Positions 11,582 to 18,231 of a stretch of DNA of 64,000 bases are shown piece by piece (the first letter of the stretch is position 1; every line of letters begins with the position of its first letter). Origin of the DNA: Edwardsiella tarda ATCC 15947 = NBRC 105688. GTDB lineage: Bacteria > Pseudomonadota > Gammaproteobacteria > Enterobacterales > Enterobacteriaceae. The notes beneath the pieces are model-generated. The model was not told the DNA's origin, ran no database searches, and saw only the letters and a program-made list of their open reading frames with translations. The position numbers and the translations under genes were made by a program. Location: the NCBI RefSeq assembly GCF_003113495.2, contig NZ_CP084506.1, forward strand, positions 3,410,001 through 3,474,000, given 5' to 3'.

Positions 11582-12395
11582 TCCAGTCGGGGTGTTGTTG
11601 CCAGATAGCGAGGTTGACCAACAGCCCCGCCGGGATTAATGCATTATTCATGATCGCCAAGGTACCGGCATCCACCTGGGTCGCGCCATAGTTCCACATG
11701 AAGTACCCCAGCCCGGAGGCGCCAACCCCCAACCACAGCAGGATCCCCCACTGCAACGGCGAGCTGGGAAGTTGTTGCGTATTGCCATACAACCACCAGG
11801 CAGGCAACGCAATCGCCAATGCCCCGAGATAGAACCAGGAAAAGGCGCGGTACTGTGGCAACGGCATCACCTCCATCAAGCGCTTATACCCCACCTGCCC
11901 TAGCGCGAAGCACAGATTCGCCCCCTGGATCAGGGCGAAGCCAAACAGGAATTGTGAGCTAAGTGGGTTATAACGGATGATCAACGCCCCCACGACCGCC
12001 AGCAAGGCACTCCCCAGATAGCCGGGGCGTAGTCGCCGTCCCTGCAACAGATCGTAGATCAGCGTGACATATAACGGCGTCATGATGGTAAACAGGAGCA
12101 CCTCCGGCACCGTCAGATAGAGGAAGGCCGGATAGTAGAACAAATACATCAACCCCAACTGGCAAGCCCCCACCGACATATAGGCCAGCGCTTGACGCGG
12201 ACGCACACCACGCCAACGCAGGAAAGGCAGGAAGACCAACGTCGCCAGCGCGACACGCACCAGCACGGCGAACCAGCTATCGACCTGGCCCGCCAGATAG
12301 ACGCCGATCAGACTAAAGGAAAAGGCCCACAATAGTGTGGTAATAAGCAACAGCGGCACGGCAACGATCCACTCGTTATATTCGATAGGCGTCAT
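11460..12395 (-). CDS. yigM: YigM, EamA/DMT-family transporter (biotin uptake in E. coli)
   Basis: A 311-residue protein with about ten membrane helices in two EamA-type halves and family segments such as [14 protein letters not shown] and [14 protein letters not shown]. coli YigM (299 residues), next to metR, is a high-affinity biotin importer. The ATG at 12393-12395 was preferred over a TTG three codons earlier. The gene converges on metR and shares 122 bases with it, an unusually long overlap. A basic tail follows the last helix. Function is by orthology and position. Confidence 0.88.
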
Positions 12396-12467
12396 TCTAC
12401 CCAAGACGAACGAGCGTTGCCGTACGGAGTGGGTTTACCAGTGGATAAACATTAGTCCATTGCACAC

Positions 12468-13601
12468 TTAGCGCTTGCGTGACAGTTGCACACCATCTTG
12501 TTCTCGCGCAAAGTCCGCCAAACGATCGAAATCGTGCCAGGTGTAATAACGGGAGGGGGCGGGAAGACGTTTCATCGCACTGCCCGTCAGCAGGTGTAAC
12601 TCCCCCAGCGAGGCCAGATCATAGTGATACAAGCGGGTCGGCAGCATCAGACGCAGTGGTGGTGCCAATTCGCCTGGCACCGGTGTCGGCAGGCGATCGT
12701 CCGCGGTATTGTAGTTGCGCTTCAACACCAAGAATTTCTGCGGCACGGCCTGACGACTGTCCCACCAGCGGCCATCCAACATATCAAACTGAAAACGCGT
12801 CAGCACGGCGGGCTGCGCCTGGAGCTGACACAGTGCCTGCGGCAACAGCGTCATCATCGCGGCATCGTATTGCCCCAATGAGGCCAGATGACCATTCAGG
12901 ATCAGATTCAATGCCAGGCGCGTCCCCAATAGGTTGGAGTAGAGATCCTCCGGGGAAAAGGCCGAGACACCCTCGGAAAAACCGCGAATGGACTCGTAAC
13001 CATACCACTGAGCGATCTCGTGCCAGGCCGCCACTTGGAACGCCAGGCGTGCCGCCAAATAGGCCGCCAGGGTATAACGCTCCTGCGCCTCTTCTGGCGG
13101 AGTAAATGCGTTGAATACTAGGCGGCGCTGCGCGAGCTCATCCCCCAGATTCAGCTGAAACGCCTGGCCGAGACGCGGATAGAGGTGGCTAAAGATATAG
13201 GCCGTCATGTCGGCGCTGTCGCGCACGTGCGCCATATCGATAAAGCCGCCACGACGCGTATACAACACGCCATTATGCTCATTACCCAACCCGGCCAGGC
13301 TGGCCAGGGCGCCGAACAGACTGTCATTGTAACGGTGGCGACCCAGCGTATCCGCCTCCACCACGTTATTCAGCCGGTAAAAGGGGATCGGTACCCCCAA
13401 CGCTTCGGCATTAAGGTCATAGCCGAAGGCGCAACAAGGACGTAGGCCGTCCGGTGGCGGCAATGGCGCACTCACCGGCCAGGCGTGTGCCGCCTGTTGC
13501 GGTTGCAACTGTGTCAAATCGAGACTCATCGGTAAGCCGAAAGCACCGACCGTGCCACAGTAAAGCAGCAGCGTCGCGCACCATCCGCGTAGTCTCCCCA
13601 T
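12468..13601 (-). CDS. Exported protein of unknown function, likely DUF4056 family
   Basis: I do not know its function. The 377-residue protein has a signal peptide (hydrophobic about residues 8-20) and then a PCCAFGYDL segment with paired cysteines, FIDMAHVRDSADM, and WHEIAQWYGYESI followed by FSEGVSAFSPEDLYSNLLG. From memory this resembles DUF4056. The HE pair and nearby acids could bind metal, but no known protease motif is complete. It is the last gene of a three-gene operon and overlaps the D15/BamA-like gene as TGATG, so the two are probably translated together. A periplasmic location is inferred. A TTG one codon earlier is a possible alternative start. Confidence 0.8.
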   Translation of the reverse strand: MGRLRGWCATLLLYCGTVGAFGLPMSLDLTQLQPQQAAHAWPVSAPLPPPDGLRPCCAFGYDLNAEALGVPIPFYRLNNVVEADTLGRHRYNDSLFGALASLAGLGNEHNGVLYTRRGGFIDMAHVRDSADMTAYIFSHLYPRLGQAFQLNLGDELAQRRLVFNAFTPPEEAQERYTLAAYLAARLAFQVAAWHEIAQWYGYESIRGFSEGVSAFSPEDLYSNLLGTRLALNLILNGHLASLGQYDAAMMTLLPQALCQLQAQPAVLTRFQFDMLDGRWWDSRQAVPQKFLVLKRNYNTADDRLPTPVPGELAPPLRLMLPTRLYHYDLASLGELHLLTGSAMKRLPAPSRYYTWHDFDRLADFAREQDGVQLSRKR

Positions 13602-14734
13602 CAAAACGCCTCTCCTACCTGAAAATAGAAGCCGCTACTCGCGCGGCCAATACCATAATCCAAACGAATATTAATTCCCGGCTTAAAGGCAAAGCGGTAA
13701 CCGACGCCCAACGTTGGCAGCCAACGACTGCTGCCCAGCTCACGCACGTTAGGCCCCATGGTGCCAGCGCCACCCCAGACGACAAAGCCATGCCGCCAGC
13801 TCAGCTTCTGCCGGTACTCCAACTGTGAGCTAATCAGGTTACGGTCACGATAACGCCCCTGGTAGTAACCGCGCATCCGCTGATCACTGCCGAGCGACGG
13901 CAACATGTTCCATGGGACCGCTCCCTGGGTGAACTCGCCATCGATCTCCCAGGCCAGCACACGCCACTCATCCAAGGCATGATAGGTACTGAAACGCGCG
14001 ATGATATTATCGAAGCGCGTATCGCTGCCCATCTCCGGCAGGTAGTGGGTGTAACGCAGGCTCGCCAGCATGCCACGCCGAGGATTCGGGACAAAGTCCC
14101 GGCTGTCATACTGCAGCGACAGGCTCGGCCCGGAACTGGATACCGCGCGGCCATGGGGGATCTGCGCCAAGCGATCGGTCGACTTGACGTCGGCGGCATG
14201 CATCATCGACAGCGACCAACCGACACCGAGATAGGTCTGGCTCGCCAGGCGATACAACACCTCAGGCTGTAGACGCAACGACTGTGCCGTGTACTTCTGC
14301 CGCCCCTCATCGTCGGCCCCGGCACGGAAACCTTGCCCCCAATAGTAGGTTGGCGTATCGCTGATCCCACCATTGATAAAAATACGCCACTGATCGTTGG
14401 CGAAGAAGCTGTAGTTACGGATCCCCAAGCCAAAGGCGCCGGTCGAACTGATATAGCCGCTGAGGGTGATGCTGGAGTTTTGGCTCACCGTATCCGTCGC
14501 ATCGGGTCGATAGAGCCCCGCTACCGCCGCGCCTAACCCAAGCCCCAGCTCGGGATTGAAGAATGGCCCCGGTAACACCCCCCAATCGATCCCCTTGTCG
14601 GGGTCGAAACGATCGTCACCGCCCAATTGCGTCAACCAGCTATCAACCTGCGCACGCGTCGGTAACAACGCCGCCGCGCCCGCCAACGGCGAGAGCGTGC
14701 AGAGCAGAGTCAACCCACGCAGGAGGTAACGCAT
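13601..14734 (-). CDS. Short BamA/TamA-like (surface antigen D15) outer-membrane protein
   Basis: A 377-residue beta-barrel protein with an N-terminal signal peptide ending near GAAALLP. It lacks the long POTRA array of BamA or TamA. The C-terminal half carries Omp85-type features: LQYDSRDFVPNPRRGML, the GSDQRMRGYYQGRYRDRN segment of the LRGY-RxRD type, the VVWGGAGTMG strand, and a C-terminal phenylalanine as expected for a BAM substrate. It is the middle gene of the operon; its start overlaps the stop of the upstream gene (TGATG), as does its own stop with the downstream start. Cargo or role is unknown. Confidence 0.85.
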   Translation of the reverse strand: MRYLLRGLTLLCTLSPLAGAAALLPTRAQVDSWLTQLGGDDRFDPDKGIDWGVLPGPFFNPELGLGLGAAVAGLYRPDATDTVSQNSSITLSGYISSTGAFGLGIRNYSFFANDQWRIFINGGISDTPTYYWGQGFRAGADDEGRQKYTAQSLRLQPEVLYRLASQTYLGVGWSLSMMHAADVKSTDRLAQIPHGRAVSSSGPSLSLQYDSRDFVPNPRRGMLASLRYTHYLPEMGSDTRFDNIIARFSTYHALDEWRVLAWEIDGEFTQGAVPWNMLPSLGSDQRMRGYYQGRYRDRNLISSQLEYRQKLSWRHGFVVWGGAGTMGPNVRELGSSRWLPTLGVGYRFAFKPGINIRLDYGIGRASSGFYFQVGEAF

Positions 14735-15789
14735 CAGAAACGGTACTCGCCAGCGATAAAGAAGCTATTGCGCTCGGCAAAGCCCACTTCGCTCGTCAGG
14801 TTAAAGTTACGGGTGATCTCATACTGTGCGCCAATCAGCACGTTCCACGGCGACGACAGATGCTGGCGTACATCGAAGCGACCTTGCCCTTTCTGGTTAG
14901 CGATCCCCATCAATACGGATAACCCCCCCGGCATCGACAGATCGCTAAGGCTACCCTTGAACTCCTGCTGTACATCCTGGTACATGCTGCCGACCCACAG
15001 GCTGAGCTTGCCGTTAGGCAGCCCGATGGTATCGATGCCGGGGGTGGTGAAGCGGTAACCGACACGCGGCGACAGGGTGAAGGCATCGATGCTACCGTCG
15101 AGAATATCGAAGCGGGTCTGGGTATAGTTCATATCCATCAGACCGAACCAGTTACCATAGCCACCGGCGAAAACCGTACCGGCACCGTAGGTCGTTCCCT
15201 TGAAGTTCAGACGAAAATCCAGATCGCGCAGTTGGCCACTCTGATTCATCGAATGAATAATCCAACCAATCAAACCACTGCTTGGATCGGCATCGACAGA
15301 AACCTTGGATAATGAGCTGCCACGCGTCTTGCCCACGATGCCATAGACATTCATGAAGGGAAATACCCACGCATCCAACTTAATCGTTTGAGTGACGCTA
15401 CGCTGACGCGTACTCCCCACCTTAATCTTGAACAGATCCGTAGGCAGCGTATAGCTATCCCAACCTAACCCGCTAAAACTAATGCTATCCACCACAATAT
15501 TCTGGCGCATATTCATATAGTTAACATTGATACCGAAAGGCTCGGGTAGATCGTAACCGCGCGCGCGCGCCTCATCGCCCCAGATGGGCAGCAGCGAATG
15601 CTCGACTGGCGGCTCGCTAGACTGCGCTGGAACAGAGGATTTGCTGCCCGCCGCGTGGGTTTGCTGCGGCAAACCATAGTAAGTGGGAAGAGTGGCGCTG
15701 AACTCAGACGGTGTCTCCTGCGTGGCCGCATGGACAACACCGCTCATCAGCACGCCAGACAGGCAGAACAGCAATGCGCGATTATTCAT
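14734..15789 (-). CDS. Putative outer-membrane beta-barrel protein, first gene of the operon
   Basis: A 351-residue protein I cannot name. It has a clear signal peptide cut near VVHAATQ, a low-complexity P/S/Q/E linker (about residues 25-65), then alternating aromatic strands and a C-terminal FFIAGEYRF that looks like an outer-membrane assembly signal. Segments such as GAGTVFAGGYGNWFGLMDMNYTQ suggest a barrel with 10-14 strands. It is transcribed first, after an AT-rich leader, and is joined to the BamA-like gene by a 1-base overlap. A link to substrate uptake or lipid handling would be speculation. Confidence 0.78.
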   Translation of the reverse strand: MNNRALLFCLSGVLMSGVVHAATQETPSEFSATLPTYYGLPQQTHAAGSKSSVPAQSSEPPVEHSLLPIWGDEARARGYDLPEPFGINVNYMNMRQNIVVDSISFSGLGWDSYTLPTDLFKIKVGSTRQRSVTQTIKLDAWVFPFMNVYGIVGKTRGSSLSKVSVDADPSSGLIGWIIHSMNQSGQLRDLDFRLNFKGTTYGAGTVFAGGYGNWFGLMDMNYTQTRFDILDGSIDAFTLSPRVGYRFTTPGIDTIGLPNGKLSLWVGSMYQDVQQEFKGSLSDLSMPGGLSVLMGIANQKGQGRFDVRQHLSSPWNVLIGAQYEITRNFNLTSEVGFAERNSFFIAGEYRF

Positions 15790-15874
15790 TTTGTTAAGGT
15801 GATTAATAATAAAAATGGATAGGAATAAAAAGTAGGTGCGGAGTATAGCAGTAAATGACTGTAACTTCGTGCAA

Positions 15875-15916
15875 CATAACGTGCGTATCCCCCCCGAGGG
15901 CGATACGCACGTTATG
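15875..15916 (-). terminator. Strong hairpin after zntA
   Basis: Perfect 15-base-pair arms (15875-15889 and 15902-15916) around a 12-base loop begin three bases after the zntA stop. There is no T-run, so it may be an mRNA-stabilising 3' stem and not an intrinsic terminator. Confidence 0.55.
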
Positions 15917-15918
15917 GC

Positions 15919-18231
15919 TTAGCGCCGGCGCAAGAGGCGTAGGGCGTTAGCCGTCACCAAAGCGGTCGCTCCGGAGTCGGCTAATACCGCGAGCCATAGC
16001 CCGGTGATCCCCAACAGACTGGTGATCAGGAAGATCCCCTTCAGCCCCAACGCCAAGGTAATGTTCTGACGAATGTTAGCGTGGGTCGCCCGCGACAGGG
16101 CGATCATCTGCGCCAGCCCCACCAAGCGATTATGGGTTAGCGCCGCATCCGCGGTCTCCAAGGCCACGTCGGTACCACCGCCCATGGCGATACCGATACT
16201 GGCCGCCTTCATCGCCGGCGCATCGTTGATGCCGTCACCGACCATCGCAGTCTGCGCGCGTTGGCTAAGCGCCTCCACCTCACGCACCTTATCCTCCGGC
16301 AATAGTCCGGCACGATATTCAATACCCAGAGAGCCAGCGATGGCCGCCGCCGCCCGCGGATTATCCCCGGTCAGCATCACCGCCTCCACCCCGAGGGTGC
16401 ACAGTGCATCCAGCGCCTCACGCGCGTCGGGGCGTAAGGTATCACTCATGGCGATCACCCCGATGGCTTGGCTATCATGTAATACCGCCACGACAGTCTG
16501 CCCGAGCTCCTCCCAAGCGATAATTTGCGCTTGCATACGTTCGGGTAAGACATCGCGCGCCAAGCGTCCCGGTGCAACGACCTGGACTAATGCGCCATCG
16601 ACCCGTCCCTCAACACCGACACCGGCGCGTGCCTGACAAGCCTCAGCCTGTACGACGGCCAACCCTCGTTGCTCACACGCCTGGAGTACCGCCTTGGCCA
16701 ATGGATGATGCGAACCCACTTCCACCGCCGCCGCCAGCATCAATACCCGCTCGTCAGAGACACCATCGCGCGCGCTCACTCCGCTTACCTGCGGCGCGCC
16801 CTGCGTCAGGGTACCCGTCTTATCGAAGGCGATGGTACGTACCCTACCCAACTGCTCCAACGCCGCACCACCCTTAATCAAGGCACCGTGACGCGAGGCG
16901 GCGGCCAGGCCGGAGGTGATCGCCGCCGGTGTCGAGATCACCAGTGCGCACGGACAGCCAATCAGTAGCATCGTCAACCCACGGTAGATCCAGGTATCCC
17001 AGGGCTGGGCGAAGGCCAGCGGCGGGATCAGGATCACCAACAACGCCAGCAACATCACCGCTGGCGTATAAAAACGGCTAAAACGATCCAAGAAACGTTC
17101 GATCGGCGCGCGACGCTCCTCCGCCTCCTCGATCAGTTGCAGGATACGATCGATAGCATTCTTCCCGGGTTGAGAAATCACCCGCAGACGACATACCCGA
17201 TCCACCACCAACACGCCGGCTGGGATACGATCCCCCTGCTGGCGCTCCACCGGCAGCGACTCACCGGTCAGCGCACTCTCATCGAAGCTGACACCATCCT
17301 GTAGCAATTCGGCGTCGGCGGGTAAGCGCCCGCCAGGTGCGATTTCGATCACCATATCAGGGCGCAGCGCCGCGACCGGCAGGGTTCGCCGTTCACCCTG
17401 CTCAATCACCAGCGCCTCATCCGGCACCAACGCCATCAACGCACTCACGCCTTTCCGCGCCCGATTGGCGGCGTAAGACTCCAGGCGCTCACCCAGCATA
17501 AACAGCAGCAGCACCATCGCCGCCTCTTCCGTCGCCCCGATAAACAACGCCCCCAACGCGGCGACGCTCATCAAGGTCTCGATGGCGAAGTAGCTGCCGC
17601 TACGCATCAGCCTGAGCGCCTTCAACATGATCGGGGCTAAGCCGACCAGCGTGGTGGCGATAAAGGCCACCCGCCCCCAGAGTGGATTGACCCACTCTAG
17701 GGCATAACTCAACAGCATCAGCCCAGCCAATAGCAGCAGTGGGGCCGCTTCGCGCCAATGCCAAGCCGTCCCTTGCTGCGGCTTGGCACCGGCCGCTTGG
17801 AGGCTAAATCCCGCCTGACGCACCGCCTGCTCCACCGCGGGCGAAATATCTTTCTGAGCGTCGACCACCAGACGTTGCGTCGCGAACAACACCGCGGCGC
17901 GCTCCACGCCCGCGAGCTGGCTGACCGCCGTCTCAATCTTCCGGGCACAACTGGGGCAATCCATTCCTGCAACCTGCCAGCTAAAGCGCTGACGTCCAGA
18001 GGCTGGAGGGGGGAGGGGGTGAGGATCGGCGTCCTCCTCGACGCCGTCATGGACATGCGCAGCCAGACAGCAGGCGCCATCGCTAGCGGGCGCCAACGGT
18101 GACGCCATGCTGATCTTCATGCCACCTTTACCTTGGGTCGGGCGGCTACAACCGTGTTGCGTTGCCGCATGCTGATGGCCACAGCCACAGGCTGCGTCAA
18201 CGCCATTAGCATGAATAGAGTTATGGGTCAT
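15919..18231 (-). CDS. zntA: ZntA, Zn(II)/Cd(II)/Pb(II)-exporting P-type ATPase
   Basis: A PIB-type ATPase of 770 residues (E. coli about 732). It has a heavy-metal domain with GMDCPSCARK (about residues 88-97), the membrane CPCALV motif (about 428), the phosphorylation loop DKTGTLT (about 469), the GSHHPL nucleotide-binding motif and GDGINDAP (about 665). The N-terminal 80 residues are unusually rich in H and C (CGCGHQH, QHGC, CCLAAHVH) and longer than in E. coli, suggesting an added metal-loading tail. The ATG follows AGGAGG. A ZntR-type promoter precedes it, divergent from gntR. Confidence 0.96.
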   Translation of the reverse strand: MTHNSIHANGVDAACGCGHQHAATQHGCSRPTQGKGGMKISMASPLAPASDGACCLAAHVHDGVEEDADPHPLPPPASGRQRFSWQVAGMDCPSCARKIETAVSQLAGVERAAVLFATQRLVVDAQKDISPAVEQAVRQAGFSLQAAGAKPQQGTAWHWREAAPLLLLAGLMLLSYALEWVNPLWGRVAFIATTLVGLAPIMLKALRLMRSGSYFAIETLMSVAALGALFIGATEEAAMVLLLFMLGERLESYAANRARKGVSALMALVPDEALVIEQGERRTLPVAALRPDMVIEIAPGGRLPADAELLQDGVSFDESALTGESLPVERQQGDRIPAGVLVVDRVCRLRVISQPGKNAIDRILQLIEEAEERRAPIERFLDRFSRFYTPAVMLLALLVILIPPLAFAQPWDTWIYRGLTMLLIGCPCALVISTPAAITSGLAAASRHGALIKGGAALEQLGRVRTIAFDKTGTLTQGAPQVSGVSARDGVSDERVLMLAAAVEVGSHHPLAKAVLQACEQRGLAVVQAEACQARAGVGVEGRVDGALVQVVAPGRLARDVLPERMQAQIIAWEELGQTVVAVLHDSQAIGVIAMSDTLRPDAREALDALCTLGVEAVMLTGDNPRAAAAIAGSLGIEYRAGLLPEDKVREVEALSQRAQTAMVGDGINDAPAMKAASIGIAMGGGTDVALETADAALTHNRLVGLAQMIALSRATHANIRQNITLALGLKGIFLITSLLGITGLWLAVLADSGATALVTANALRLLRRR

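Follow-up and report, generated by a model that had tools for sequence, protein, structure and literature searches.

What might two outer-membrane barrels do together with an exported protein of the family DUF4056? The question is raised by three adjoining genes, here called A, B and C, in a stretch of 64,000 nucleotides from Edwardsiella tarda ATCC 15947 = NBRC 105688 (contig NZ_CP084506.1, positions 3,410,001 to 3,474,000; hereafter the window, to whose first letter all coordinates refer). We propose, with a probability of about one half, that the trio is an outer-membrane lipid-processing device. This reading is preferred because C falls in a family of predicted lipid head-group enzymes and because some A genes adjoin genes of lipase type. 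The original prediction, which had been made from the letters alone, favoured a small assembly, secretion or uptake device; for the same two reasons that is no longer the leading idea.

Three coupled genes on the minus strand

The open reading frame (ORF) list and the sequence place A at 15789 to 14734 (351 residues), B at 14734 to 13601 (377 residues) and C at 13601 to 12468 (377 residues), all on the minus strand. The TGATG coupling claimed for both junctions was confirmed in the sequence: one base is common to the stop and the next start (14734..14736 between A and B, 13601..13603 between B and C). For C, the list gives a TTG start at 13604, and the ATG at 13601 yields the 377 residues that are also the length of its closest relatives; the protein is 98% identical to a DUF4056 protein of Edwardsiella tarda. 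Phenylalanine stands last in A (GEYRF) and in B (VGEAF), as had been noted, and all three proteins begin with a signal-peptide-like stretch, judged by inspection only, in keeping with the view of three exported proteins, two of them barrels. Promoter and terminator scans of 12380-16050 returned no more than was found in shuffled sequence.

Protein C carries the signature of the Lipocone superfamily

The third protein (12468..13601, minus strand) had been described as DUF4056-like, and it matches the Pfam model PF13265 (DUF4056) at 420 bits against a curated cut-off of 23.6 (E 4.8e-126). It is predicted to be exported, soluble and periplasmic. The main text of a 2025 paper (PMC12419801) puts DUF4056, as the clade CapCone-DUF4056, into the Lipocone superfamily of predicted lipid head-group enzymes. 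According to that text, the clade has a histidine in helix H2 with glycine at −6 and aspartate at −3, and an aspartate in helix H4 that is preceded by S/GxxSxx, has serine at −3 and is followed at +4 by asparagine, itself preceded by a small residue. Both patterns are present in C. G119, D122 and H125 (codon 13227..13229, minus strand) occur in 226 of 226 distinct DUF4056 sequences. The helix H4 aspartate aligns with D219 (codon 12945..12947, minus strand) in the arrangement S213xxS216xxD219 with N223 at +4, and among the same 226 sequences S213, D219 and N223 are found in all, S222 in 225 and S216 in 223. H194 (codon 13020..13022, minus strand) and the neighbouring E195 are likewise shared by all 226, as are C56 and C57, so that the conserved Cys, His and Glu segments seen in the original prediction proved to hold invariant residues. 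The Cys-Cys pair (C56-C57) and an equally invariant Trp-Trp pair (279-280) lie outside the Lipocone clade rules as that text words them.

An AlphaFold2 model of C (mean predicted local distance difference test, pLDDT, 83.5; predicted template modelling score, pTM, 0.86) has two strands (112-115 and 119-122) that form a hairpin at 112-122, and helices at 123-143, 172-199, 219-235 and 242-259. The Lipocone signature residues fall in the first three of these helices, the hairpin standing just ahead of the first; H194 and E195 lie in helix 172-199. Comparison of the model with solved structures gave no usable match, and TelC, a studied Lipocone toxin named in PMC12419801, was not among the matches listed; the Lipocone fold is thus without independent confirmation from this comparison, although the missing match indicates nothing either way. 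Searches of PDB sequences, made with each of the three proteins and with a C profile, also returned no match. DUF2279, another Lipocone family, was matched in 1 of 60 genomes, too few for an alignment. Taken together with the family assignment, the conserved residues suggest that C may act catalytically on lipid head groups.

Part of the relatives of C look like lipoproteins: a loose lipobox pattern occurs in 60 of the 109 C proteins from fetched loci (41/80 from named genomes, 19/29 from a wider set) and in just 4 of 117 other C proteins; the Edwardsiella C is without it.

A POTRA-less Omp85-type barrel by sequence and a second predicted barrel

B (13601..14734, minus strand) is by homology an Omp85-type barrel. 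It matches the Pfam Omp85 model PF01103 (E 9.2e-10; 39 bits against a cut-off of 24). The model NF047779 is matched by 21 of 21 aligned members of the B family, the window's own B scoring 79.8 bits, under the cut-off of 200. A B-family profile recovers the PDB chain 9ccg_A, a solved POTRA protein, over profile positions 121-380 (E 1.3e-9). No POTRA model was matched at E <= 1 in Pfam or NCBIfam, and the protein has 377 residues in all; Omp85 and barrel models were the only ones matched there, with no fused patatin. An Omp85-like barrel lacking the POTRA array, as originally proposed for the middle protein, is supported by these comparisons of sequence. Seven residues are invariant among 21 sequences (R288, Y290, R357, D359, E375, A376, F377). 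They include parts of an L6-like MRGY (residues 287-290), of RLDYG and of the C-terminal GEAF; compared with the published (V/I)RG(Y/F) of L6 and (F/G)xDxG of strand 13, the first residue of both motifs differs.

Related genes were also seen in other arrangements. In L160-L162 and L169 (L numbers denote fetched loci) another group of B paralogues adjoins a small exported protein, of which the L162 copy matches DUF3108 (E 2.5e-6) and the L160 copy matches nothing. In one group of close relatives (L116-L118), A is immediately preceded by a further Omp85-like gene that is less closely related, and in L116 a gene for an MscS-type mechanosensitive channel stands ahead of that (region L116:2925-5728).

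A (14734..15789, minus strand) is predicted by modelling to be an outer-membrane β-barrel of about 10-12 strands that ends in YRF. A predicted signal peptide is followed by a low-confidence linker (residues 18-59), and a conserved segment, LPIWGDEARARGYDLPEPFG (residues 67-86), precedes the barrel. Its sole Pfam match is to the barrel model PF13505, below threshold (E 0.016). In other genomes an A-like barrel also makes up the C-terminal portion of ORFs with about 490-570 residues (among them those of L157-L159, L172, L173, L175-L180, L182-L184, L186, L188 and L189); no Pfam family was matched by the three of these that were scanned (L157, L158, L179).

Conservation and co-inheritance of the set

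A scan of named genomes found 294 places with a DUF4056 relative, and the counts that follow use the best 80, the most similar ones. The order A-B-C on one strand is kept in 75 of these 80 loci, so that neighbourhood and order, which the original prediction had named as checks on a joint function, were both borne out in these loci. Of the 75, 71 have an A-B gap of −4 to +2 bases and four, where reading frames are partly split, one of 100 to 1275 bases; the B-C gap is −4 to +1 bases in all 75. Among the remaining five loci, L051 and L060 lie near contig ends, L061 has A and C without B, and L080 and L084 have C alone.

More distant relatives were sampled in a wider set of 35 fetched neighbourhoods, of which 31 were counted after the weak or fragmentary L145-L148 were removed (L115 and L149 repeat named loci). 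All three genes lie on one strand in 28 of the 31, as A-C-B in 17, A-B-C in 10 and B-A-C in one, the last with a distant Omp85 gene; two others have A and C, and one has C alone. Gene order varies across the relatives while the set mostly persists.

In a sample of the phylum, DUF4056 was matched in 15 of 398 genomes, 13 of them above the cut-off and all in the home order; a sample of that order gave matches in 34 of 197 genomes, 33 above the cut-off. Co-occurrence was counted in the 197 genomes with thresholds chosen after the lists had been inspected (E < 1e-90 for C and A, E < 1e-150 for B), leaving out G409 and G528, whose C matches are fragmentary or weak though above the Pfam cut-off. A strong C was found in 31 genomes and a strong A in 32, with both in 31, so that every strong C has a strong A; a close B was found in 28, each of which also has C. 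The set thus stays together far more than chance would give (nominal P 2e-35 and 6e-31 by the hypergeometric test, uncorrected for relatedness). Three genomes with a strong C are without a close B, and there C and A are present. The B family is wider than C, because B at E < 1e-90 also occurs in five genomes without C. At E <= 1e-5, B-like matches extend to 61 and A-like matches to 41 of the 197 genomes.

The 14 widest neighbour clusters at the 80 named loci include no fourth constant member of the operon. The widest cluster, which contains the gene immediately upstream of the Edwardsiella A, covers 9 loci and 5 genera among the 80 loci and 25 genus labels. In the window, what we take to be a zntA-like gene for a metal P-type ATPase lies 129 bases upstream of the trio on the same strand, and what is presumably an EamA-type transporter gene lies about 63 bases downstream. 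In named Kluyvera and Citrobacter loci, gyrB (recognised by sequence) precedes the trio by two or three genes; it is also close to the A-B pair of L163, which has no C beside it.

Lipid-enzyme genes beside A

Of the 31 wider DUF4056 loci, 13 encode between A and C a homologue of alpha/beta-hydrolases with about 300-330 residues. Three of the 13 were checked against Pfam (E 8.5e-18 to 3.2e-21); nine fit the loose lipobox pattern and 11 have GxSxG. Away from DUF4056, a homologue of phospholipase D, patatin or carboxylesterase lies within a few genes in 11 of 36 fetched A-like loci. Pfam confirmed phospholipase D-like genes in L158, L159, L175, L182 and L189 and carboxylesterase-like genes in L182 and L189. 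A patatin-like gene overlaps A in L165 (Pfam E 8.6e-25), and in L184 the genes for A, a patatin and an Omp85-like protein stand in a row on one strand. The loose lipobox pattern is found in 26 of 30 such enzymes that lie within two genes of A. Some of the partners may be inactive, as GxSxG is missing from all four carboxylesterase homologues and from two of the alpha/beta-hydrolases. In one DUF4056 locus, L121 (G290:C69), a patatin match at G290:C69:9741-10373 is convergent to the trio.

Counted with local profiles, these enzymes make up 26 of 213 co-directional neighbour genes and 9 of 723 others; as the profiles were themselves derived from genes next to A, this comparison is biased. The count that we rely on used Pfam models, which do not derive from these loci. 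Of the 41 A-bearing genomes it excluded the six from the home family and covered the other 35, which have 71 A-like matches; enzyme matches close to these were picked by eye among the matches listed. An A-like match lies no more than 3 kb from at least 5 of 202 patatin matches, which come from two families, where 0.67 are expected (nominal P 6e-4). For phospholipase D, at least 11 genes from four families lie within 5 kb, against 1.45 expected (nominal P 4e-7); the expectation derives from 278 domain matches, often two per gene, and is an upper estimate for genes. Five of the 11 (six if a second gene of one genome is counted) come from one genus. By distance, five, from one genus, are at about 1 kb or less from the A-like match, and six are at 3-4 kb.

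Proposed function

The lipid-processing reading can be set out in steps. C would be exported and remain at the periplasmic face, where, as a Lipocone enzyme, it would act on an outer-membrane lipid, most likely a glycerophospholipid, and cleave off or exchange the head group that a phosphoester bond attaches to it. The reaction would be carried by its set of two histidines and one aspartate. A and B would form a pair of barrels in the outer membrane that localises C there, through contacts among the three proteins, and opens access to the lipid; at the seam of its barrel, B may open the bilayer or make it thinner, and A may be a docking or lipid-presenting barrel. In some distant relatives, acyl chains could next be stripped by the alpha/beta-hydrolase whose gene lies between A and C.

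More tentatively, the A and B families may be a modular platform into which different lineages plug different lipid-cleaving enzymes, namely a CapCone Lipocone, an alpha/beta-hydrolase, a patatin or a phospholipase D. The Edwardsiella trio would be its head-group-cleaving form, and its Omp85 barrels would serve lipids and not assembly; we regard this extension as possible but doubtful.

Two observations weigh against these proposals. In 25 of the 36 fetched A-like loci none of the four enzyme types is present, and our confidence in both the lipid-processing and the modular reading was lowered on that account. Furthermore, A-B pairs without these enzymes exist (L151, L152, L155, L163), which speaks against a simple form of the platform. 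None of the four enzyme types accompanies the clusters of L150, L153, L154 and L156, where two or three A-like genes stand in a row with between one and three B-like genes.

Alternative functions

Plasmid copies bear on an alternative in which C acts on lipid-linked glycans. DUF4056 was found on 18 of 72,556 plasmid records, 11 of them from Escherichia and one from Photobacterium, and 10 of the 18 are conjugative. A Citrobacter B-C query, which could miss more distant copies, matched 8 of 5,426 E. coli genomes, in all eight on plasmids (60-80% identity). The whole trio is present on two of three plasmids examined (L191, L192), in one case amid insertion sequences, while on the third, plasmid A of E. 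coli C5 (L190:4483-10089) A and C directly follow genes for a polysaccharide deacetylase, a family 4 glycosyltransferase and VirK. No remnant of B was found when the region between A and C on this plasmid was inspected. The arrangement resembles a cluster for the modification of lipopolysaccharide (LPS). We have retained the glycan reading because of these upstream genes. C would then cut or transfer a phosphoester-linked polysaccharide at the outer membrane, where the barrels would serve to anchor it or let it out; examples of the substrate would be phosphatidylglycerol-linked enterobacterial common antigen, parts of LPS, or undecaprenyl-phosphate glycans. It is in keeping with this that, for the barrel-tied Lipocones of the YfiM type, the text of PMC12419801 suggests that they link or release polysaccharide chains of the outer membrane. 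The recurring partners, however, are homologues of lipases and phospholipases, no glycan gene recurs in the 14 widest clusters of genes around the named loci, and, as regards the common antigen, the set is also present in relatives from other families. We consider action on glycans unlikely.

That the trio serves secretion or assembly, with B folding or translocating its partners and C as exported cargo or periplasmic helper, would agree with the homology of B to Omp85 and with the constant coupling of the genes, and the passage of PMC4104836 on Omp85 proteins that lack an N-terminal extension suggests a possible role for them in membrane-protein biogenesis. C, however, has invariant residues resembling an active site and lies in a superfamily of predicted enzymes, the lipobox pattern in more than half of the C proteins from fetched loci suggests anchoring and not passage, and three genomes keep C and A without a close B. 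Such a role appears rather improbable. Least credible of all is a conflict system in which C is a secreted antibacterial toxin directed at lipids and A and B are export or immunity parts: the passage of PMC11669294 on a Salmonella type VI secretion system cluster names its DUF4056 gene as a possible effector, and the plasmid copies would suit such a role, but C shows strict conservation alongside the same pair of partners, no immunity-like gene recurs among the neighbour clusters listed, and CapCone-DUF4056 is absent from the toxin families listed in the text of PMC12419801.

Relation to known systems

In the lipid-processing reading, the trio resembles the PL-Omp85 proteins (PlpD of Pseudomonas aeruginosa, FplA), in which an Omp85-type barrel is likewise tied to a periplasmic lipid-cleaving enzyme. 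As described in the relevant passages of PMC11116518, PlpD joins its barrel and a periplasmic patatin domain in one chain, phospholipid levels change in the mutant, and a role in outer-membrane lipid homeostasis is proposed for the group. The architectures differ, since patatin, POTRA and barrel form a single polypeptide in PL-Omp85, whereas the trio has no POTRA, a separate predicted Lipocone enzyme and a second barrel. By this analogy the trio may be PlpD-like in its action while standing outside the PlpD family.

C itself is a member of CapCone-DUF4056 by its Pfam model and by the sequence signatures tested. The passages of PMC12419801 on this clade, as distinct from the figures and supplementary data, give neither gene context nor function for it, and the partnership with A and B is an addition to what is known of it. 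The same text describes YfiM-Griddle and YfiM-DUF2279, where a Lipocone lies beside or is fused with a barrel and is predicted to act on outer-membrane lipid; these belong to another Lipocone clade than C. Omp85-linked lipid enzymes and links between Lipocones and barrels are thus each known already, separately.

B is like the noNterm Omp85 proteins of PMC4104836 in being a barrel without an N-terminal extension, and may belong with them; no partner genes are named in that passage. TpsB/FhaC and BamA/TamA belong with B to one barrel superfamily and carry an L6 motif of RGY type, which the MRGY of B resembles; B differs in having no POTRA and in the first residue of both signature motifs. No TpsA-type exoprotein appeared among the 14 widest neighbour clusters, though no model search was aimed at TpsA.

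The statement in the original prediction that no function had been described for this set agrees with searches of open full-text literature on DUF4056, Lipocone and Omp85, in which neither the A-B-C set nor a function of DUF4056 was found described among the papers and passages listed. A figure legend in PMC11566119 places a lipoprotein, a membrane protein and DUF4056 side by side among Xenorhabdus genes without comment on function; these are perhaps the same trio.

Implications

In the genome sample the trio is spread through many Enterobacterales and other families of the same order. If the lipid-processing reading is true, the role in lipid homeostasis seen for Omp85 proteins such as PlpD would extend to a multi-protein system that lacks POTRA domains. 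DUF4056 would gain a working hypothesis with named residues and a pair of partners, and a reading would be offered for barrels now annotated just as hypothetical or as BamA/TamA family proteins. The trio, a compact operon that can be removed gene by gene, is a candidate for the adjustment or clean-up of outer-membrane phospholipids.

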